This document shows positions 4,356 to 14,519 of a stretch of DNA of 44,796 nucleotides, in pieces. Position numbers and translations under genes: made by a program. Position 1 is the first letter of the stretch, and each line of letters begins with the position of its first letter. Below the pieces are notes generated by a model. It worked only from the letters and a program-made list of their open reading frames with translations. It was not told the DNA's origin and did no database searches. The stretch spans positions 1 to 44,796 of the forward strand of contig JAEUWD010000061.1 in assembly GCA_016786485.1 (NCBI GenBank). Direction: 5' to 3'. Source of the stretch: Bacteriovoracaceae bacterium. GTDB lineage: Bacteria > Bdellovibrionota > Bacteriovoracia > Bacteriovoracales > Bacteriovoracaceae.

Positions 4356-5963
4356 TTGGAAGTTTTCAATTCGTTGATCGACACAACCTCTTCTGAGTTC
4401 AAAGATAATTTCGCTTTTAATAAAAATATTCTTAATGAACTTCAATCAAAAATCGCTACCGCCAAAAAAGGTGGGGATGAAGAGTCTGTTTTAAAACATA
4501 AAAAACGTAATAAATTTTTGCCACGTGAACGGATTGAGAAAGTTCTCGATTCAGGTAGTCCTTTTTTAGAATTATCAACCTTAGCGGCGAATGAAGTTTA
4601 TGAATCGGATGTTCCTGGTGCCGGCATCGTAACTGGGATTGGTAAAGTTCATGGCATATTATGTATGTTTGTCGCCAACGACGCCACTGTTAAGGGGGGG
4701 ACATATTTTCCATTAACGGTTAAAAAACATTTACGCGCCCAAGAAATAGCTCTCGAAAATAAATTACCATGTATCTACTTAGTGGATTCTGGTGGTGCTT
4801 TTTTACCAAAACAAGATGAAGTTTTTCCAGATAAAGAGCATTTTGGCCGAATCTTTTTTAATCAGGCCCAAATGTCTTCACAAGGTATTCCGCAATTAGC
4901 GGCAGTGCTTGGTTCTTGCACGGCGGGTGGCGCTTATGTGCCTGCCATGAGTGATGAATCGATTATTGTGAAAGGCAATGGAACCATCTTCTTAGGTGGA
5001 CCTCCGCTAGTGAAAGCCGCGACTGGCGAAGAAGTAACGGCAGAAGATTTAGGTGGAGCGATGGTACACACAAGTAAATCAGGTGTGGCCGATCATTTTG
5101 CCGAAAATGAAGAAGAAGCATTACTCAAAATTCGTGATGTTGTGGAGAATATTAATTATAAAAAAGCGACTTCCCCAGCATTTGAAGTAAAAAAGCCAGC
5201 TTATGATTCATCAGAAATTTATGGTGTCTTGCCAAAAGATGTACGCAAGCAATACGATGTACGCGAAATTATCGCACGTATCGTAGATGGTTCTGAATTT
5301 CATGAATTCAAAAAGAATTACGGAACAACACTAGTTTGTTGTTTCGCTAAAATCCACGGACAACAAGTTGGGATTATTGCCAATAACGGAATTTTATTTT
5401 CTGAGAGTTCTCTCAAAGGTGCGCACTTTATTGAGTTGTGTGAACAGCGAAGAATTCCAATCGTTTTTCTACAAAACATTACAGGCTTTATGGTTGGAAA
5501 AGAATATGAATCAAAAGGTATCGCTAAAGACGGCGCGAAATTAGTGACCGCTGTTTCAACGGCAACGGTACCAAAAATCACGATTGTTATTGGTGGTTCA
5601 TTTGGCGCTGGCAACTACGGAATGTGCGGAAGAGCTTTCGGTCCACGTTTTATGTTCATGTGGCCTTCATCAAAAATTTCCGTCATGGGTGGTGAGCAAG
5701 CTGCCAATGTTTTAGCTACAGTAAAACAAGATGGTTTAAAAGCTGCGAATAAAAAAATGCTAAGTGAAAAAGAAGTCGCGGAATTTAAACAACCTATTCT
5801 TGATAAATATGAAAAAGAAGGCAGCGCTTATTACAGCACTGCTCGCATTTGGGATGATGGAATTATTGAGCCTCATCAAACTCGAGATATTTTAGGATTA
5901 GTTTTAAATACCGTTGAGAACTCAAACGAAGCCAAAAAGAAATTTGGCATTTTTAGAATGTAA
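4356..5963 (+). CDS. liuB: Methylcrotonyl-CoA carboxylase, carboxyltransferase (beta) subunit
   Basis: The protein has 535 residues, full length for the family. It transfers CO2 from carboxybiotin to 3-methylcrotonyl-CoA in leucine degradation. Motifs typical of the MCC branch rather than propionyl-CoA carboxylase are present: [29 protein letters not shown] and [16 protein letters not shown] in the N-terminal crotonase-like half, and [16 protein letters not shown] in the C-terminal half. The start is TTG 4356, fixed by AGAAGGAG six bases upstream and by the N-terminal match to the family. It is first in a six-gene operon; liuC follows after two bases. Confidence 0.93.
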
Positions 5964-5965
5964 TT

Positions 5966-6751
5966 ATGAATAAAGCATTATTAATTGAAATTAAAAACTT
6001 TGTTGCTACCGTTACCTTGAATCGTCCAGAGGTTCACAATGCTTTTAATGCTGAGTTAATTAAAGAATTATCACAAACTTTTCAAAAGTTGGATAACGAT
6101 AAAAAAGTTAAGGTCATTGTTCTTACTGGCAGTGGCTCAAGTTTTTGTGCGGGTGCTGATGTTAACTGGATGAAGTCGATGGTTAACTTCACTAAAAAAG
6201 AAAACATCGCAGACAGTATGAAAATGGCAAATATGTTTGAAGGCATTAATGCTTGTTCGAAACCCCTCATTGGTGTGGTTAATGGACATGCTTTAGGTGG
6301 TGGTGCTGGACTAGTGAGTGTTTGTGATTATGTTATCGCCGTGCCTGAAGCCAGTTTTGGTTTTACTGAAGTCAGACTAGGTTTAATCCCAGCCGTGATT
6401 TCACCTTATGTTATTGCAAAAATTGGTGAGTCAAATGCTCGAGCTTGGTTTTTGTCGGGTGAACGCTTTAGTGCGAAAACCGCTTATGATATGCACTTAA
6501 TTCATGAAGTCGCAGATAAAAATATTCTCGCTCAACAAACTCAAAAAATAATTGAGAGCTTTTTAAAAGCTGCACCGGAAGCTACACAAGTGGCAAAAGA
6601 ACTTATTCAAGTAGTGACTAAGAATCTTAAGCAAACAAAATTAAAAAAAATAACCTGTGAACAAATTGCGAAACGCAGAGTAAGTAAAGAAGGCCAAGAA
6701 GGAATGAATTCACTCCTTGAAAAACGTAAACCTCAATGGACAGAAAAATGA
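5966..6751 (+). CDS. liuC: Methylglutaconyl-CoA hydratase (crotonase family)
   Basis: The protein has 261 residues. It hydrates 3-methylglutaconyl-CoA to HMG-CoA, the step after MCC. The oxyanion-hole strand reads FCAGADVNWM, the signature that separates methylglutaconyl-CoA hydratases from generic enoyl-CoA hydratases. GHALGGGAG forms the second oxyanion-hole loop, and FGFTEVRLGLIPAVISPYV carries the expected active-site segment. It starts two bases after liuB. Its TGA stop overlaps the ATG of the next gene (ATGA), so translation is coupled. Confidence 0.9.
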   Translation: MNKALLIEIKNFVATVTLNRPEVHNAFNAELIKELSQTFQKLDNDKKVKVIVLTGSGSSFCAGADVNWMKSMVNFTKKENIADSMKMANMFEGINACSKPLIGVVNGHALGGGAGLVSVCDYVIAVPEASFGFTEVRLGLIPAVISPYVIAKIGESNARAWFLSGERFSAKTAYDMHLIHEVADKNILAQQTQKIIESFLKAAPEATQVAKELIQVVTKNLKQTKLKKITCEQIAKRRVSKEGQEGMNSLLEKRKPQWTEK

Positions 6752-8229
6752 TAAAAAAAATATTAATTGCTAATCGTGGTGAAATTGCCTTGAGAGTTAT
6801 TGCGACTTGCAAGGAAATGGGAATTAAAACGGTTACCGTTTATTCACACTATGATCAAAAATTACCTCATGCTTTCATGGCTGATGAATCTTATCTGTTA
6901 GAAGGTGAAACTATTGGGGAAACTTATTTAAATCAAACGGCGATTATAAAAATAGCCAAGCAGACGAAAGCCGATGCCATTCACCCTGGTTATGGTTTCT
7001 TATCTGAAAATTCTGATTTCTCAAATGCAGTAAAAGCAGCCGGTATCATTTTTATTGGTCCGGATGAACGAGCTATTGAAATCATGGGTGATAAGAAAAC
7101 CAGTAAGCAAACGTTAGAAAAAATTAAGATTCCTATGATTCCTGGTTATCACGGTAACGAACAAGACGCGAAGTTTTTGGCCAATGAAGCGAAGAAAATT
7201 GGGTTCCCCGTTTTAATTAAAGCTTCTGCCGGCGGTGGTGGTAAAGGGATGAGAATCGTCAATGCGGAAAGCGAGTTTGCCGATGCTTTGGCAGGAGCAA
7301 AACGCGAGGCCATGAATGCTTTTGGGGATGACCATGTCTTATTGGAAAAATACATTATTGATCCAAGACATATTGAAGTGCAGGTCATGTCAGATAAGCA
7401 TGGTAACCATTTGCACTTTTTTGAAAGAGAATGTTCGATTCAACGTCGTTATCAAAAAATTGTCGAAGAAACGCCCAGTGTTGCTTTAGATGATAAAACC
7501 CGTGCGAATATTTGTAAGACCGCAGTAGAAATCGCAAAAGGGATTGATTATCTCGGTGCAGGAACGGTTGAATTTATTTTGGATCAAAAGAAAAATTTTT
7601 ATTTCTTAGAAATGAATACACGTTTACAAGTTGAACATCCGATCACTGAAATGGTGACGGGATATGATCTGGTGAAATTGCAAATTCAAGTTGCTAATGG
7701 CGAAAAACTTGAAATTAAGCAAAGTGATATTACTCAGACAGGCCACTCATTAGAGTGTCGAATTTATGCCGAAGACCCAAACAATAATTTTCTTCCGACG
7801 AATGGGAAAATTAAATTTATCGGAAAAAGCTTTTTAAAAAATGTTAGACTTGATTGTGGATATAGCGATGGTAATGATGTTTCAACTCAATATGATCCGA
7901 TGTTAGCGAAGCTGATTGTACATGCACAAACTCGAGATGAAGCCATTGCAAAGATGACTCATGCTCTTAACGATTTTGTTTTTACTGGAGTTGTGACGAA
8001 TCGTAGTTATTTGATTAAAGTTTTAGCTCATCGAGATTTTAAAACAGGAAATATCTCAACTGATTTCGTGAAAAAAAATAAAGCGGATTTAGAAAATAAG
8101 AACTTAGAAAAAAGTGCCGCCGCCGATTTGATGGCAGCTTTCTTATTCTCTGAAACTAAAGCGAAATCAACGAGCACTGGAAAATTGGAAAGTACTTGGG
8201 AACAGCTATCAAATTTTAGGAACATCTAA
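6748..8229 (+). CDS. liuD: Biotin carboxylase part of a split methylcrotonyl-CoA carboxylase alpha subunit
   Basis: The protein has 493 residues from ATG 6748, which overlaps the liuC stop as ATGA; ATG 6736 is less likely. It is an ATP-grasp biotin carboxylase: KKILIANRGEIA at the start, HPGYGFLSEN, the glycine-rich ATP loop SAGGGGKGM, ERECSIQRR, and EMNTRLQVEHPITE. It carboxylates biotin with ATP and bicarbonate. Normal MCC alpha chains have about 650 residues and carry the BT and biotinyl domains. Here the chain stops at TWEQLSNFRNI, which resembles the start of the BT domain, and the rest is a separate gene starting at the stop codon (TAATG). Confidence 0.9.
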   Translation: MIKKILIANRGEIALRVIATCKEMGIKTVTVYSHYDQKLPHAFMADESYLLEGETIGETYLNQTAIIKIAKQTKADAIHPGYGFLSENSDFSNAVKAAGIIFIGPDERAIEIMGDKKTSKQTLEKIKIPMIPGYHGNEQDAKFLANEAKKIGFPVLIKASAGGGGKGMRIVNAESEFADALAGAKREAMNAFGDDHVLLEKYIIDPRHIEVQVMSDKHGNHLHFFERECSIQRRYQKIVEETPSVALDDKTRANICKTAVEIAKGIDYLGAGTVEFILDQKKNFYFLEMNTRLQVEHPITEMVTGYDLVKLQIQVANGEKLEIKQSDITQTGHSLECRIYAEDPNNNFLPTNGKIKFIGKSFLKNVRLDCGYSDGNDVSTQYDPMLAKLIVHAQTRDEAIAKMTHALNDFVFTGVVTNRSYLIKVLAHRDFKTGNISTDFVKKNKADLENKNLEKSAAADLMAAFLFSETKAKSTSTGKLESTWEQLSNFRNI

Positions 8230-8711
8230 TGGAAAAGACGATTATTGTTAACGGCCAAGAAAATAAAATAAAGATTATTTCACAAAATGCTGAGCAAATA
8301 GTGTTTGAATTTGCTGGTGCCGAATATTCATATCAGCGCATGGCCGATATTGCCGATTTTATTTTCCTAAAACGTGGCGATAAATTAATCAAGGCAACAA
8401 CTTCAGTTTTAGGTAATGGCGAAACTCGAATTGCCATCAACGAGAATGAAGCGACGGTTGGTCTCAAATCTCGTAAGTCTTCAACCCAAGCAGCAGCAGG
8501 TGAGCTAAAATCACCGATGCCTGGTAAGATTTTCAAAATTATGGCCAAGGTTTCACAAAAAGTAACTGTTGGCGAGCCACTACTGATTGTTGAAGCAATG
8601 AAGATGGAACATACCATTAAAGCTAATCAAGATGGGATCATCAAAAAAATCAATTATAAAGAAGGTGAGCAAGTTGATGCTGGCGCCTTATTAGTTCAGA
8701 TAGAGGAATAA
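8229..8711 (+). CDS. Biotin carboxyl carrier part (BT plus biotinyl domain) of the split MCC alpha subunit
   Basis: The protein has 160 residues. The C-terminal 70 residues are a biotinyl domain: KSPMPGKIF, then EAMKMEHTI with the biotinylated lysine at K125. Residues 1-85 are beta-rich and match the expected position of the BT domain that links alpha and beta subunits in MCC. ATG 8229 overlaps the preceding TAA (TAATG), and AGGA seven bases upstream gives it its own ribosome site. The upstream reading frame is closed by a TAG at 8217-8219, so this is a separate gene and not a simple one-base reading error. Confidence 0.88.
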   Translation: MEKTIIVNGQENKIKIISQNAEQIVFEFAGAEYSYQRMADIADFIFLKRGDKLIKATTSVLGNGETRIAINENEATVGLKSRKSSTQAAAGELKSPMPGKIFKIMAKVSQKVTVGEPLLIVEAMKMEHTIKANQDGIIKKINYKEGEQVDAGALLVQIEE

Positions 8712-8712
8712 A

Positions 8713-9636
8713 ATGCTTGAGAAACAACCTAAGAAAATTAAAATTCTCGAGGTTGGTCCACGCGACGGTTTGCAAAACGAAAAACAAATTGTTTCAACGG
8801 TAGATAAATTTCAATTTATTAAAAAATTAGCGATGTCAGGTTTGCAAAATATTGAAGCATCAAGTTTTGTAAAAGCTCAGTCTATTCCACAGATGTCGGA
8901 CGCAGTTGAACTTTTTAGAATGATTAAAGCTGATGCAACACTAACTAAGGTCCAGTTCTCTGCACTTGTTCCAAATGAGCAAGGTTATCAAAAGGCCCGT
9001 GAATTTAATCTTTCACAAATTGCGCTTTTTACTTCGACGTCTGACACATTCAACAAAAAAAATATCAATAGCACCGTGGATGAAAGTTTTGACAAGATGG
9101 CGGTGGTGGCGAAATTAGCTAAAGCTGATAAAAAACGGCTGCGTGTTTATATTTCGACTGCTTTTGGTTGTCCCTACGAAGGTGAGATTTCTATTAAAAA
9201 AGTCTGTGACGTTTATGAACGTGCTTTGAAATTAAAAGCCGATGAAATCGCGGTGAGTGATACCATTGGTGTGGCGACTCCAAAACAAGTTAAAAAAGTT
9301 ATTCTACAACTGAAAAAAGAATTTGGTCTTAGCAAGGTAGCGCTCCATTTTCATGATACACGGGGAATGGCATTGACCAATATTTTAGTGGCGCTTGAGC
9401 ATGGTATCGTGAGTTTTGATTCGGCCGCAGGTGGTTTAGGTGGCTGTCCATATGCGAAAGGTGCGACAGGCAATGTGGCCACGGAAGATTTACTTTATTT
9501 GCTTACTTCACTTGGTGTTAAACATGGAGTGGAAATGAGTAAATTGGCTGAAGCTTCAGCGTTTATTCATGAAAAAATTCAAAAACAAACAAATTCAAAA
9601 TATCTACAAGCTTACTTAAAATCGCAAAAGGGTTAA
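8713..9636 (+). CDS. liuE: Hydroxymethylglutaryl-CoA lyase
   Basis: The protein has 307 residues, normal for the family. It cleaves HMG-CoA to acetyl-CoA and acetoacetate. The N-terminal VGPRDGLQNE carries the catalytic Arg and metal-binding Asp. SDTIGVATP and LHFHDTRGMA supply substrate and metal contacts. GGLGGCPYAKGATGN contains the active-site Cys of the HMG-CoA lyase signature, which separates it from isopropylmalate and citramalate synthases. It begins one base after the carrier gene's stop. The acetoacetate could be activated by the synthetase at 18958. Confidence 0.93.
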   Translation: MLEKQPKKIKILEVGPRDGLQNEKQIVSTVDKFQFIKKLAMSGLQNIEASSFVKAQSIPQMSDAVELFRMIKADATLTKVQFSALVPNEQGYQKAREFNLSQIALFTSTSDTFNKKNINSTVDESFDKMAVVAKLAKADKKRLRVYISTAFGCPYEGEISIKKVCDVYERALKLKADEIAVSDTIGVATPKQVKKVILQLKKEFGLSKVALHFHDTRGMALTNILVALEHGIVSFDSAAGGLGGCPYAKGATGNVATEDLLYLLTSLGVKHGVEMSKLAEASAFIHEKIQKQTNSKYLQAYLKSQKG

Positions 9637-9639
9637 TCC

Positions 9640-10443
9640 ATGAAAAAATATGCTGATTTAATCACAGAAAAGACTCATTCTATTTTCTGGATAAAATTTA
9701 ATCGTCCACAACAGCGAAATGCTATTTCGAGTGAAATGATTGAATCATTCGTGGCAGCACTTAGTGAAGCAGAAATGGATGATAGTGTACGCGTGATTAT
9801 TTTAGCTGGTGAGGGCGAGAATTTCTCGGCCGGTGGTGATGTGAAGGATATGAAGTCAAAGAGTGGCATGTTTGCTGGTGAAGCAAATGAATTACGTTTA
9901 CGTTATCGAAATGGTATTCAAAAAATTCCCGAAGCAATCAATCGCTTGAATAAACCTTTAATTGGAATGGTTCATGGTGCAGCAGTTGGTGCGGGCTGCG
10001 ATATTGTGTCGATGTGTGATTATGTGGTGGCCGAAGAGAAGGCGACATTTGCTGAAACTTTTTCAAAGATCGCATTGGTCCCAGGTGATGGTGGAACATT
10101 TTTTCTTCAACGGGCCATCGGCTTTCGAAAAGCGATGGAAATGTATCTGACTGGCGATTTTTATTCAGCAACTCAAGCACTAGCAATGGGTTTAATTAAT
10201 AAAGTAACGAGTAAAGAAAATTTAAAAGCTGAAACAATTAAAGTAGCAGACAAGATTTCCCAAAATAGTCCGATTGCCATTCAAATGACTAAACGTGCAT
10301 TAGTTCATGCCTATCGTTCTGACCTCAATTCGAATCTTGATTTACTTTCAGCGTTCCAAGCGATCACACAGAGAACGACTGATCATGCGGAAGGGTTGAA
10401 GGCCTTGCAGCAAAAAGAAAAACCCAACTTTCAAGGCCGTTAA
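9640..10443 (+). CDS. Second enoyl-CoA hydratase/isomerase (crotonase family)
   Basis: The protein has 267 residues and is last in the operon, three bases after liuE. Oxyanion-hole segments are present: NFSAGGDVKDM and GAAVGAGCDIVSMCD. The loop after the second segment reads FSKIALVPGDGGTFFL, closer to the PaaG/isomerase-like crotonases, with an acidic residue late in the loop instead of the usual Glu pair. The substrate is therefore uncertain: another branched or short-chain enoyl-CoA is likely. It differs clearly from LiuC in the operon, so it is probably not a redundant copy. Confidence 0.85.
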   Translation: MKKYADLITEKTHSIFWIKFNRPQQRNAISSEMIESFVAALSEAEMDDSVRVIILAGEGENFSAGGDVKDMKSKSGMFAGEANELRLRYRNGIQKIPEAINRLNKPLIGMVHGAAVGAGCDIVSMCDYVVAEEKATFAETFSKIALVPGDGGTFFLQRAIGFRKAMEMYLTGDFYSATQALAMGLINKVTSKENLKAETIKVADKISQNSPIAIQMTKRALVHAYRSDLNSNLDLLSAFQAITQRTTDHAEGLKALQQKEKPNFQGR

Positions 10444-10480: not shown

Positions 10481-10514
10481 ATAACTAGTTGATATTTTAT
10501 TGTTTGGGGTTTTT

Positions 10515-10856
10515 ATGAAAATACTTTTTTCACTATTTTTTGCTTTAATCGTAACTTCATGTTCAAACGTGCATTACCGTTTTAGAGAAAAATCGTCTTA
10601 TCCAGTAAAATTCACTGGTGAGCCTCGTGAAAAAAGAGAAGTTTCATTCGAATTAAAAAGAGAATTTTTACTTTGGGGATTATCACCTAAGCAGCAAGAA
10701 GTTATTGTGGATGAAGAAGTGGAAAAAGCAGGCTACTCTTCATTATCAAGACTTATCATTTATGAAAGAAGAACAACTCAAGATATCGTGTTAAGTATCA
10801 TCACCTTCGGATTCTACAATCCAAGAACGATTGTTATCACTGGTTTCACCGAATAA
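10515..10856 (+). CDS. Small lipoprotein, unknown function
   Basis: The protein has 113 residues from ATG 10515; an in-frame TTG at 10500 would add five residues with no benefit. A lysine-containing n-region and hydrophobic core end in a lipobox IVTSC, so the mature protein begins with lipidated Cys about 18 residues in. The mature part is about 95 residues and basic-acidic mixed. It ends with a hydrophobic segment (QDIVLSIITFGFYNPRTIVITGF) that may be a second membrane contact or buried strands. There is no recognised family. It has its own promoter and is convergent with the next gene. Confidence 0.75.
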   Translation: MKILFSLFFALIVTSCSNVHYRFREKSSYPVKFTGEPREKREVSFELKREFLLWGLSPKQQEVIVDEEVEKAGYSSLSRLIIYERRTTQDIVLSIITFGFYNPRTIVITGFTE

Positions 10857-10944: not shown

Positions 10945-11727
10945 TTAGAGTTTTAGTCCACGATTAGCTTTAACTTTTTCTGCAGCAGGTATCGTAACGA
11001 CATGCTTGCTACCATCAAATAGAATCAAATTTTCAATACCGTCTAAAGGTTTATCTTTTATTGCTTGAAGATAGATACCAGTAAATTTATGTTCCTTTAG
11101 ATCGGCATCTATATAATATGTTACAAATTTATTATCAATTTTTTCGACTCTAAAATGTAGTTTTCCAACCTGCATAGTTGTGGTCGCAAATATATTCAGA
11201 AGTTTAGGCTGAAGTAGATCATAGGTAAGGACGAATTCACCACCGATTTCTGGATCATAGTTAAGCGCCTTCACATTAAATTTCATAAGATTAAAATAAT
11301 CTTCATAATCAACAAAGTTAGCACCTTTTGTACTCGTTAGCTCAGCGACGCTGTATTTATTGTGTTCGTAATCACCCGGCTTTTTGTCCTTACATTGAGT
11401 ATCTCGGTAACCAACGACTTCTTGATGTTGTTTATCAGTATAAGCGAACACATTGGCGACAAAGTTTTTATTAAAGTCGACTCCAGGAATGCTGATGTCA
11501 AAATATCCGTAAAGCGTAAATAGGCTTTTGGCATTAAAGTCTCTGGGTGGTGGTGTTACTGAATATCTTTTGAGGAAATCTAAGATAGCTTCAGGTACTT
11601 CTTCATCAACTAAATCGTAGAAATATTCACAGGCGTAATTACTAGCAGGCCCCCGACATCTAGGGTGCTGCTTAATGGTTTCCCCGTGAAATATAAGTGC
11701 CATAAGGAAGAAAAATAAGATTTTCAT
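10945..11727 (-). CDS. Exported protein of unknown function
   Basis: The protein has 260 residues. A short signal peptide (MKILFFFLMALIFHGET) is followed by a mature domain with several Cys (CRGPASNYACEY near 24-34 and one at about 115), suggesting disulphides in the periplasm. The sequence is rich in Tyr, Phe and Asp and looks like a mixed alpha/beta globular protein; no family is recognised. Only a weak GGGT precedes the ATG. A promoter candidate lies at 11795-11822. The final codons sit against the hairpin of the convergent lipoprotein gene. Confidence 0.72.
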   Translation of the reverse strand: MKILFFFLMALIFHGETIKQHPRCRGPASNYACEYFYDLVDEEVPEAILDFLKRYSVTPPPRDFNAKSLFTLYGYFDISIPGVDFNKNFVANVFAYTDKQHQEVVGYRDTQCKDKKPGDYEHNKYSVAELTSTKGANFVDYEDYFNLMKFNVKALNYDPEIGGEFVLTYDLLQPKLLNIFATTTMQVGKLHFRVEKIDNKFVTYYIDADLKEHKFTGIYLQAIKDKPLDGIENLILFDGSKHVVTIPAAEKVKANRGLKL

Positions 11728-11850: not shown

Positions 11851-11878
11851 AAAAAAAAGGGGCCGTAAAAACGGCCCC
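11851..11878 (-). terminator. Rho-independent terminator after the Cys-rich lipoprotein
   Basis: Bases 11859-11866 and 11871-11878 form an 8-pair GC-rich stem (GGGGCCGT/ACGGCCCC) with a four-base loop. On the minus strand it is followed by eight T residues, ten bases after the lipoprotein stop codon. It marks the end of the small two-gene unit. Confidence 0.9.
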
Positions 11879-11888
11879 GAAGGTAAAA

Positions 11889-12056
11889 TTAAGACTTTTT
11901 CTTTTCTTCTACTTTTTTAGCATCTTTTTTACACTTACCATCTTTGCATTCACTTGATTTGCAACAAGCGTCTTTCGAGCATGACTTTTTGCAAAGCATG
12001 CCACAACTACTAAACATAAGTGCAGAACCAATTAACATCATACTTACTAATTTCAT
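11889..12056 (-). CDS. 55-residue Cys/Lys-rich lipoprotein, probable metal binder
   Basis: This small gene encodes 55 residues. ATG 12056 is preceded by AAAGGAG at ideal spacing, and a strong terminator follows the stop, so it is very likely real. The signal peptide ends in lipobox MFSSC (Cys18). The mature part is short and packed with Cys and Lys: CGMLCKKSC, then DACC, SECKDGKCKK, giving seven Cys in all, and a Lys/Glu-rich tail. Closely spaced CxxxC and CC pairs suggest metal or disulphide chemistry at the membrane surface. It lies 55 bases after the His/Cys-rich exported protein on the same strand. The function is inference; no family is recognised. Confidence 0.8.
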   Translation of the reverse strand: MKLVSMMLIGSALMFSSCGMLCKKSCSKDACCKSSECKDGKCKKDAKKVEEKKKS

Positions 12057-12111
12057 ACATTCTCCTTTGAAGAATACTGTTATTTTTCGTGAACGAACAT
12101 GAATAGATTAT

Positions 12112-12420
12112 TTAAGCAATGGGTGGACGGAGCAGATTAATTTGATAATTTTGTGGGCTTTCAGTAATAAAGTGAAATTGTGCAGTACCTATTAAATTTA
12201 TTTCATAAGAAATACTTGGAGCTTGAGCTGTTTGGAAATAGTGATTGAAACAGCATCCGATACAACTGCTATTGTGTTGATTACTAGAAGTTTCATGTTC
12301 TTGATGTTCGGTGCAAAGACTGCTTTCGTTCTCAGCCACTTCTTGCCCATGTTCGCAAATATGCACCGAAGAATTAATGAAATAAAAGGTGAATACGGAC
12401 AACAGTAACAACAACTTCAT
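12112..12420 (-). CDS. Small exported His/Cys-rich protein, possible metal-handling role
   Basis: The protein has 102 residues. A signal peptide (MKLLLLLSVFTFYFINSS) is followed by a His/Cys/Glu-rich stretch: HICEHG, LCTEHQEHE, NQHNSSCIGCCFNH. The C-terminal 40 residues are uncharged and end in INLLRPPIA. The layout (signal, His/Cys cluster, Pro-containing tail) resembles small proteins found next to heavy-metal efflux genes in other bacteria, but no efflux pump is nearby. The start has no ribosome site; a TATAAT box ends six bases before the ATG, so the message may be leaderless. It is probably cotranscribed with the Cys-rich lipoprotein. Confidence 0.75.
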   Translation of the reverse strand: MKLLLLLSVFTFYFINSSVHICEHGQEVAENESSLCTEHQEHETSSNQHNSSCIGCCFNHYFQTAQAPSISYEINLIGTAQFHFITESPQNYQINLLRPPIA

Positions 12421-12426
12421 ACTACT

Positions 12427-12432
12427 ATTATA
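12427..12432 (-). promoter_or_regulatory. TATAAT box immediately upstream of the His/Cys-rich protein gene
   Basis: A perfect TATAAT on the minus strand ends six bases before ATG 12420, so transcription would begin at or next to the start codon. No clear -35 hexamer is seen at 16-18 bases. Confidence 0.5.
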
Positions 12433-12500
12433 TCGGTATTTCAGAATCCTAGCAGAGGCAAAATTGTCATTTTTAGGTCAAATTTAGGGCAAGTAAGGTG

Positions 12501-14519
12501 TTATATATTCTTTATTAAGTCGCTAAAAAAGTTAGTTTTATACTCTTGGGCCTCTTCGGCGCTCATGTGCCCAAAAGTTGTGCGATCTTGTTCAGTATAG
12601 AGATCTTTAGAGATTTCTACTAAGAAGCGTGAGCGATTTCGAGGGACCGTTTTTCCATAAAGAACCCGTTGCTTGGTGCAGGTCATGATCAAATTATGTT
12701 TGGCCCTAGTGACGCCCACATAACACAGACGTCTTTCTTCATCGACGTCACCATCATCAATAGATTTTTTATGCGGGAGAATTTCTTCTTCCACTCCGAC
12801 CAAATACACACGATTAAACTCGAGGCCTTTGGATGAATGAAGAGTCATCATGGTGATTTCATTTTTTTTCTCTTCTTCGTGTTCATTTTTATTATCTTGT
12901 GAATCGGCCAGGAGGATTTTCTCTAAGAAATTTTCCAATGTCGCATCACTTTGAAAACGGTTCACAAATCTTTCAGCAGAAAGAATTAAGTGCTCGATAT
13001 CAAGCTTTCTAAAACCGGCTTGTTGAGCACTATCGTAACTTTTATCAATGAACGAATAATAATCAATTTCGGCGATCAATTCTTTAAGCGCGGTATGGAG
13101 TGGCTGTGTCTTGAACTGATTTTGATAATGATAGATAAGTTTATCAAAGTTTTTAAATTTCGTATCGTCTTGTTGACCTAACTCATTCATCGCTTTTAGA
13201 AAGGTCACTTTCTTTTGCTGAGTTAAATCAAGAATTTTGGCGAGTGTCGCTGTCCCAATTCCGCGATTCGGAATATTAATAATTCGTCTAAGCGAAATTT
13301 GATCGTTGGGGTTTCGGATGACTGAAAGATAAGAAATAATATCCTTAACTTCTTTTTTATCGTAAAGCTTTTGTCCGCCAATCATGCGATATGGAACCAT
13401 ACTTAAACGCAATTGATCTTCGAGCACTGGTGCTTGCATATTGCTACGATAAAGAATAGCTACCTCGTTTAAGGGGCGACCTTCTTTTTGATAATTAATA
13501 ATATCTTCCACCACAATTTGCGCTTCATGAGTCGAATCGAGTGTTAACCATAGTAAAGGTTTTTCACCAGGTGCTTGTCGACTAAACATCGTTTTATCTT
13601 TTCGATTTCGGCTATTTTTAATAATCGGATTGGCCAGACCTAGAATCGCAGGCGTAGAACGATAGTTTTGCTCTAGCTTGATAATCTTGGTGTTTTGAAA
13701 GATTTTTTCGAAATTTAAAATGTTCGTAATATCAGCGCCACGGAAAGCGTAGATAGATTGATCGTCATCACCAACGACGCAAATATTTTGATGAGCTGAA
13801 GTAAGACCTTTCACAAGCTCGAATTGTAAGCCGTTCGTATCTTGATACTCATCGATCATGAGATAGCGGAAACGTTCTGAATATTTGGTCGCAACTTCAG
13901 GAAATTTTCGGAACAACTTCACCACCAGTAACAGAATATCATCGAAATCGATGGCATTATAAAAATGAAGCCGTTCTTGATAGAATTGATAAATATGTTC
14001 AGTCACTAAGTCATATTCGCTAAGTGGATCAAAAAAACGTGAACGTTTAAAATCTCCAACTTCAATCCCATTATTTTTCAGTAAGGAAATTTTGCTTTGA
14101 ATCGCTTTCTTATCAAATGACTTTTTATCAGTTCGAAGATTTTTTAGTCCTTCTCGGATAATCGCCATTTGATCGTTGGTATCATAAATCGTAAAATTTC
14201 TTTGGTAGCCAAGTTTTACAATGTCTTCTTTGAGAATCTGAATGCCGAGAGAATGGAAAGTGGAAAGTGTTAAGCCGCGAGCAGCATGGCGACCGAGGAT
14301 TTTCTCTGTACGCTCTTTCATTTCTTTTGCGGCCTTATTAGTAAAACTGACCGCTAGAATTTGTTCAGCTGGGATGCCGAGGTTTCGCACCATATGGGCA
14401 ATACGGAATGTTACAGTTTTGGTCTTGCCAGAACCCGCACCAGCAAGGATGAGGACGGGTCCTTCAATCGTTTGTGCAGCAGTACGTTGCTCAGGGTTAA
14501 GTTCGTTCAATGAAAACAT
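12501..14519 (-). CDS. rep: Rep-type UvrD/PcrA superfamily I DNA helicase
   Basis: The protein has 672 residues, almost the length of E. coli Rep. Motifs occur in order: Q motif LNPEQRTAA, Walker A GAGSGKT (27-33), FTNKAAKEMKERT, STFHSLG, Walker B DEYQDTN, VVGDDDQSIYAFRGA, LEQNYRST, and MTLHSSKGLEF near the C-terminal third. VGDDDQS, RGLTLSTFHSLG and the overall length favour Rep over UvrD. It unwinds DNA 3' to 5' with ATP during replication restart and repair. It is divergent from fumC and followed on the same strand by the small His/Cys gene. Confidence 0.93.
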   Translation of the reverse strand: MFSLNELNPEQRTAAQTIEGPVLILAGAGSGKTKTVTFRIAHMVRNLGIPAEQILAVSFTNKAAKEMKERTEKILGRHAARGLTLSTFHSLGIQILKEDIVKLGYQRNFTIYDTNDQMAIIREGLKNLRTDKKSFDKKAIQSKISLLKNNGIEVGDFKRSRFFDPLSEYDLVTEHIYQFYQERLHFYNAIDFDDILLLVVKLFRKFPEVATKYSERFRYLMIDEYQDTNGLQFELVKGLTSAHQNICVVGDDDQSIYAFRGADITNILNFEKIFQNTKIIKLEQNYRSTPAILGLANPIIKNSRNRKDKTMFSRQAPGEKPLLWLTLDSTHEAQIVVEDIINYQKEGRPLNEVAILYRSNMQAPVLEDQLRLSMVPYRMIGGQKLYDKKEVKDIISYLSVIRNPNDQISLRRIINIPNRGIGTATLAKILDLTQQKKVTFLKAMNELGQQDDTKFKNFDKLIYHYQNQFKTQPLHTALKELIAEIDYYSFIDKSYDSAQQAGFRKLDIEHLILSAERFVNRFQSDATLENFLEKILLADSQDNKNEHEEEKKNEITMMTLHSSKGLEFNRVYLVGVEEEILPHKKSIDDGDVDEERRLCYVGVTRAKHNLIMTCTKQRVLYGKTVPRNRSRFLVEISKDLYTEQDRTTFGHMSAEEAQEYKTNFFSDLIKNI

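Follow-up and report, generated by a model that had tools for sequence, protein, structure and literature searches.

What could a lipoprotein of 55 residues, rich in Cys and Lys, be doing directly behind the gene for a small exported protein that is itself full of Cys and His? The two genes lie on the minus strand of a 44,796-nt stretch of DNA from a Bacteriovoracaceae bacterium (contig JAEUWD010000061.1, positions 1–44,796; "the window" denotes this whole stretch). Their initial annotation had pointed to a seven-Cys lipoprotein with an AAAGGAG ribosome site and a terminator, separated by 55 nt from a His/Cys-rich exported protein, all of which was confirmed in the sequence. The lipoprotein gene (11889–12056) starts with ATG and encodes the lipobox FSSC, seven Cys and a mature part of 38 aa with 13 Lys; its Shine–Dalgarno sequence AAAGGAG (12062–12068) is placed 5 nt before the start codon. 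On the other side of the gap (12057–12111), the 102-aa open reading frame at 12112–12420 combines a hydrophobic N-terminus, judged by eye, with the clusters HICEHG, EHQEHE and CIGCCFNH. Within the last of these, CIGCC (residues 53–57; 12250–12264) is a putative metal motif, 41 residues before a Pro-Pro pair (residues 99–100). The codons for this pair and the preceding Arg (RPP, residues 98–100; 12121–12129) lie two residues before the end of the protein and form the proposed stall site.

Downstream, an intrinsic terminator spans 11851–11878, with an 8-bp stem (7 GC pairs) in the stem-loop 11859–11878 and a run of eight T at 11851–11858. Terminator-like sites in the surrounding 4.4-kb stretch number three, vs. 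3.2 expected from shuffles, and of the three only this one has 7 GC pairs and 8 T. Upstream, a –10 element TATAAT (12427–12432) ends 6 nt before the ATG of the 102-aa frame, and no Shine–Dalgarno sequence precedes that ATG, so that the transcript probably has no 5' leader or only a very short one. One flank is occupied by a UvrD/Rep-like helicase (12501–14519, assigned by eye) and the other, past the terminator, by a 260-aa exported protein (10945–11727) for which Pfam and NCBIfam gave no credible family match. On the plus strand, a short lipoprotein-like ORF (10500–10856) matches phage lambda Bor (PF06291) with 24.6 bits at a cut-off of 25, and a run of ORFs at 4356–10443 (acyl-CoA carboxylase, enoyl-CoA hydratase, biotin carboxylase, biotin carrier, HMG-CoA-lyase-like) looks by eye like a leucine-degradation cluster.

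As a sole query against 39 genomes, the 55-aa peptide matched only itself, and the 102-aa protein returned two weak relatives, one of which (genome G021) has another Cys/Lys-rich lipoprotein 35 nt downstream. Profiles built from these few sequences and searched in 129 genomes of the family (E ≤ 0.05) matched 19 genomes for the longer protein, hereafter the leader, and 28 for the lipoprotein. Nine genomes had both, adjacent in six (the window's genome G000, G021, G065, G092, G095 and G098) and on different contigs in G047, G070 and G118. With further pairs obtained by reading loci, the total came to 11 pairs, spread over 10 genomes from 8 genera; in all 11 the leader comes first, on the same strand, with a gap of 35–56 nt. 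Across 368 genomes of the phylum, the lipoprotein was detected in 27 (E ≤ 0.001) at 29 places, all within the window's family and 11 of them paired, and the leader profile in 30 genomes at 36 places, again with 11 paired. The other 18 lipoprotein places had no leader next to them among the ORFs that passed a filter for size and position; the lipoprotein can thus work without a leader. Similar Met/His-rich exported proteins are encoded near two unpaired copies (L030, 1782–2264; L069, 2511–3026), and the one that was searched had no Pfam match.

The named homologs stem from metagenome-assembled genomes labeled Bacteriovoracaceae, Bacteriovoracales, Halobacteriovorax, Bdellovibrionales, Oligoflexia, Deltaproteobacteria or simply "bacterium", labels that indicate the Bdellovibrionota. 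A scan of genome contigs led by the window peptide gave no lipoprotein relative; led by a central homolog, it gave 10 loci, eight of which carry lipoprotein genes identical to known ones and therefore add names, not new cases. No relatives of the lipoprotein turned up in viral contigs (scan) or plasmids (tblastn). Between three related genomes, the lipoprotein gene evolves with dN/dS values of 0.05–0.18 and the leader gene with 0.29 and 0.36, the third leader comparison giving 0.92 from only 5 differences. The 45-nt gap between the genes differs at 0 or 4 positions in these genomes, and the 150 nt upstream at 34–63, counted in an ungapped comparison that unaligned indels may inflate. As the pair recurs and both genes look under purifying selection, it is more than a chance arrangement; it also represents a class of tiny genes (55–122 aa) that annotation may miss.

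An alignment of ten paired leaders (all but that of G018, which came to light at a later stage; the starts of the G098, G092 C53 and G060 leaders were shifted to an internal ATG by eye) revealed C36 and C56 as invariant and C57 as nearly so, together with an invariant PP and a nearly invariant preceding R. All 11 end in [RK]PP[IM], with KPP in one of them, and then run on for 1–5 residues (2–6 residues after PP), and in all 11 the last Cys and PP are separated by 38–41 residues. The best family match of the window leader is CopL_fam (NF033807), at 18.3 bits vs. a curated cut-off of 40; eight of the ten aligned leaders matched this family at E ≤ 1, the best at 6.3e-8, and Pfam DUF2946 was absent from the matches of the ten at the same threshold. 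Given the hydrophobic signal, the Cys/His motif, the C-terminal RPPI, the fixed Cys-to-PP spacing, the position as first gene and the short gap, the 102-aa protein is most readily interpreted as a CopL/CutF/CruR-type regulatory leader, with the lipoprotein as its target.

Other leaders in the family and phylum precede genes for outer-membrane efflux proteins, an RND pump or HupE/UreJ. Three more leaders of this kind are encoded in the window's own genome (C30, C5 and C59; L004/L023, L026 and L027) and end in KPPLV or KPPIV. The initial annotation had noted that no efflux pump lies alongside the pair: no efflux gene adjoins it, but in the genome at large one of these paralogs precedes an outer-membrane efflux gene (C30) and another an RND pump gene (C5). 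In G007, an ORF for a small CsoR-like regulator (L094, 1119–1403 on the match strand; by eye) immediately precedes a leader and an efflux-like gene, which fits copper. In a genome from another family of the phylum (G292, L099), a CutF-like leader ending in KPPPRV (1495–1809) is followed by a different Cys-rich protein, exported and not a lipoprotein (1903–2154; CESCECEEGCDCCEEGCGCDCC), for which no relatives were found in 13 other genomes of that family.

The alignment of the lipoproteins likewise covers ten of the 11 paired proteins, without the later-found G018. The initial annotation had named loss of the Cys pattern in relatives as the finding that would speak against it; instead, the lipid-carrying Cys and four others, two of which form a CC pair (C18, C31, C32, C37 and C42), are invariant in the ten, and most of them add SCC, C and C further along. 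Over the 11 pairs, mature parts measure 38–104 residues and contain 7–16 Cys, 8–29 Lys and just 1–7 hydrophobic residues, the window's protein being the shortest and devoid of the SCC segment. All 11 have a lipobox-like stretch by pattern; among 19 lipoproteins, a single one matched the LPAM_1 profile (E ≤ 0.1). In position +2, behind the lipid Cys, the proteins have G, S or A and never D. By the E. coli +2 rule, lipoproteins with a residue other than D in this position go to the outer membrane, where the protein is thus probably anchored. Searches of Pfam, NCBIfam and PDB sequences returned no family for it, and no metallothionein family was among the Pfam matches of the 19 lipoproteins (E ≤ 0.1). 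Weak matches to LSR, keratin and neurophysin-type entries were judged composition artefacts. From composition and context, the lipoprotein is probably metallothionein-like, a putative metal binder outside the cytoplasm.

All RNA folds reported here are thermodynamic predictions on AT-rich RNA, and combined tests comprised nine pairs, as G089 and G090 are near-duplicates of a G092 copy and were left out. In several pairs the last codons of the leader are complementary to the ribosome site of the lipoprotein gene, for instance over 12 nt without mismatch in G021 and over 8 nt in G065, and cognate duplexes of tail and site are predicted to be stronger than non-cognate ones (permutation p = 0.0068, nine pairs). 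Opening the Shine–Dalgarno sequence would cost on average 6.64 kcal/mol in the pairs (n = 9), vs. 2.78 in unpaired lipoprotein genes (n = 17) and 3.30 in other genes (n = 50), with p = 5e-4 for the paired set against each control. From the unpaired set, two of 19 were dropped for want of a ribosome site, and L039, a near-duplicate of L038, and the doubtful L080 were not entered. In three related genomes, no compensatory two-sided change was seen in the stem that would hide the site, both stem differences keeping their pairs.

Placing a ribosome at PP in the model lowers the predicted opening cost in 10 of the 11 pairs. As its leading edge moves along the leader, the mean over nine pairs stays at 6.2–6.7 kcal/mol up to the first Pro codon and drops to 2.3 kcal/mol with the edge at +15 nt and 1.7 at +18; in most pairs the fall occurs at +9 to +18 nt past that codon; it comes earlier in G098 and G018 and is small in G060. 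Compared with synonymous and shuffled controls, the effect of the stalled ribosome with the edge at +15 gave a combined p of 4.0e-4 (nine pairs; 1.5e-4 without the window's), and 5.4e-5 with the footprint edge at +20. Single pairs at +15 range from p = 0.026 to 0.23 (0.85 for the window), so the strength resides in the combined test only. Leaders in front of other genes are predicted to behave alike: 14 of 25 measured were taken because the next start was visible, six of these lacked a ribosome-site core and were dropped, and the eight usable ones, taken together, showed the same fall (combined p = 4.6e-5), with none in L009.

The window's own copy is the exception. Pairing of its leader tail is no better than in synonymous shuffles (p = 0.58), the predicted masking of its ribosome site does not exceed that of controls (p = 0.33), and the modeled stalled ribosome does not release it (4.81 kcal/mol free, 5.11 stalled; p = 0.85). 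The opening cost itself depends on the stretch considered, namely 2.4 kcal/mol with that used in the contrast of paired and unpaired genes and 4.8–5.1 with the GGAG core or AGGAG. A local 8-bp hairpin is predicted over the Shine–Dalgarno sequence (12058–12076; arms 12069–12076 and 12058–12065, loop AAA). It was considered as a CutF-like switch and rejected, being no better than shuffles (z = –0.51) and out of reach for a ribosome stalled at RPP. The RNA step is therefore unsupported, as modeled, for the window's copy: either this copy is regulated differently, e.g. in the manner of CruR, or the switch has been lost, or the model misses something.

A further layer of control may reside upstream. 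In most pairs, an 11-bp direct repeat with TTGACA-like halves is found 61–86 nt before the leader ATG; in the window it spans 12465–12481 on the minus strand (TTGACCTAAAAATGACA) and is a possible activator site. Among spacings of 8–16 bp in nine promoters, that of 11 alone is set apart (best match on average 9.78 of 12 vs. 7.64, z = 10.4; z ≤ 3.4 for the others), the contrast between spacings being all that counts here, since the half-site was picked from the tested sequences. Two of the nine promoters, those of G018 and G092 C53, match the repeat poorly. The strict pattern has a single exact match in the window's genome, at the leader promoter, and a reversed control pattern also occurs once. 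As the repeat resembles the sites bound by response regulators of the OmpR/PhoB type, transcription may respond to metal in addition to leader control.

We lean, with modest confidence, towards a self-contained, two-gene metal-response cassette, in which metal-dependent stalling on the leader gates a metallothionein-like lipoprotein. The gene pair, the conservation, the C-terminal motif and the spacing are observed, and the RNA pairing is computed for most pairs. The leader would be translated first and exported through Sec; upon decoding of RPPI, CIGCC, ~40 residues further towards the N-terminus, would have reached or passed the periplasmic face of the translocon, where a metal, most likely copper, might bind it and alter the length of the pause at RPP. 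A paused ribosome would cover the last leader codons and keep them from pairing with the Shine–Dalgarno region of the lipoprotein gene or from contributing to its concealment, so that in the cassette family the lipoprotein would be switched on. The latter, with 7–16 Cys in a short Lys-rich tail, could then bind periplasmic metal like a metallothionein. Stalling, the identity of the metal, the direction of the switch and metal binding by the lipoprotein are the steps that we infer, and it speaks against the cassette that the motif is RPP rather than the RAPP shown to stall, as do the window copy's deviating RNA, the mostly weak single-pair tests, the lack of DUF2946 matches, the window leader's sub-threshold CopL score and the lipoprotein places without a leader. 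If real, the cassette would offer a minimal two-gene system for testing how metal on a nascent exported chain alters ribosome stalling. More tentatively still, and with real doubt, we put forward a metal buffer that stands alone and is specific to this lineage of Bacteriovoracaceae-like bacteria: the exported nascent chain would sense metal at the translocon and stall on its own last codons, which would at the same time serve as anti-Shine–Dalgarno strand, and would thereby directly gate a membrane-anchored periplasmic metallothionein. If true, sensor, switch and sink would be united in one ~600-nt transcript with no pump or enzyme.

How do other explanations fare against the cassette? The initial annotation's idea of metal capture or sensing in the envelope survives in broad terms, but the two proteins probably do not play equivalent roles. 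Taken at its word, it would make both of them ordinary envelope metal binders sharing an operon, with no leader-type regulation. This requires no mechanism, suits the window's atypical ribosome site and agrees with the many Cys and His in both proteins and a leader dN/dS of about 0.3; we nevertheless hold it to be unlikely, because a soluble chelator would have no obvious use for an RPPI at the extreme C-terminus or for a fixed Cys-to-PP spacing, and because the ribosome site is predicted to be costlier to open in paired genes than in their unpaired relatives. Alternatively, the Cys pairs of the lipoprotein could form disulfides with a redox or structural role rather than a metal site. The periplasm is an oxidising compartment, which would suit them; still, the CC and SCC clusters, the scarcity of hydrophobic residues in the mature part (1–7) and the metal-type leader make this improbable.

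Equally concerned with the leader is the notion of a secretion monitor of the SecM/VemP type, which would report export status, its Cys being incidental. The hydrophobic signal and C-terminal PP motif would suit such a role, which is nonetheless very improbable given that the Cys cluster is conserved and that the genes downstream encode Cys-rich lipoproteins, efflux or HupE proteins and not sec or yidC. The switch might also work with the opposite sign: the ribosome would stall without metal, and metal would relieve the stall and shut off the lipoprotein, e.g. through Rho, leaving it as a scavenger in times of scarcity. CruR itself works this way (PMC9426467), and the window copy fits, as its site is not predicted to be opened by ribosome stalling. 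Yet CruR has RAPP and a 162-nt gap as opposed to RPP and 35–56 nt in the pairs; a stalled ribosome is predicted to open the site in 10 of the 11; and efflux genes, for which one would expect a need under metal excess, follow related leaders of this lineage. The reversed sign thus also appears rather unlikely, and the cassette with lipoprotein synthesis switched on remains our preferred reading.

Each half of the cassette has known counterparts. Metallothioneins of the bacterial SmtA/BmtA type are short, Cys-rich, poor in hydrophobic residues and cytosolic; the lipoprotein shares their shortness, Cys content and few hydrophobic residues and differs from them as a Lys-rich lipoprotein that, in the window, matches neither a metallothionein in Pfam nor a sequence in PDB. 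On the leader side, the CopL family (NF033807; Xanthomonas copLAB) is the nearest, although the window leader falls below its cut-off and has no copA or copB next door. Leader control of this sort has already been published for other metal genes, namely for CutF and CruR, both of which are mentioned in PMC10987492. Searches of open-licence papers revealed no account of a metallothionein-like lipoprotein under such a leader; pairs of this kind may sit among the unlabeled neighbors of PMC9973294. If the cassette holds true, metal control by arrest peptides would extend to the Bdellovibrionota, a phylum including predators of other bacteria.

CruR of Bordetella pertussis relies on a RAPP motif and Rho (PMC9426467), and in toeprinting its two Pro codons were found to occupy the P site and the A site of the ribosome (PMC12992588). 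Like the leaders described here, it is a small exported protein that heads an operon and carries a Cys motif and a C-terminal Arg...Pro-Pro; in contrast to them, it has RAPP and a 162-nt gap, is Rho-dependent and controls a TonB-dependent transporter (PMC9426467), and DUF2946 was absent from the Pfam matches of the ten aligned leaders. In CutF, from the cutFOG operon of Rhodobacter capsulatus, the Cys motif lies 45 residues before the C-terminal motif, is placed by the authors in the periplasmic vestibule of SecY at the ribosome pause, and the leader restores downstream expression in cis and not in trans (PMC9973294). The pairs share with it a small, probably exported leader, a Cys motif ~40–45 residues ahead of a C-terminal Pro-rich motif and a short gap (PMC9973294). 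RNA that masks the downstream ribosome site, as in CutF, and that a stalled ribosome would open is predicted for 10 of 11 pairs, weakly so for G060, and not for the window's own copy. Moreover, the efflux and HupE-type neighbors of related leaders are of the same sort as those listed for CutF (PMC9973294). The systems differ in the hiding arm, which in several pairs includes the leader's own last codons and in the window is only a local hairpin, and in the target, a Tat-exported multicopper oxidase for CutF vs. a Cys-rich lipoprotein here (PMC9973294), whereby metal-binding lipoproteins would, if our reading is correct, join the targets of metal-responsive arrest peptides.
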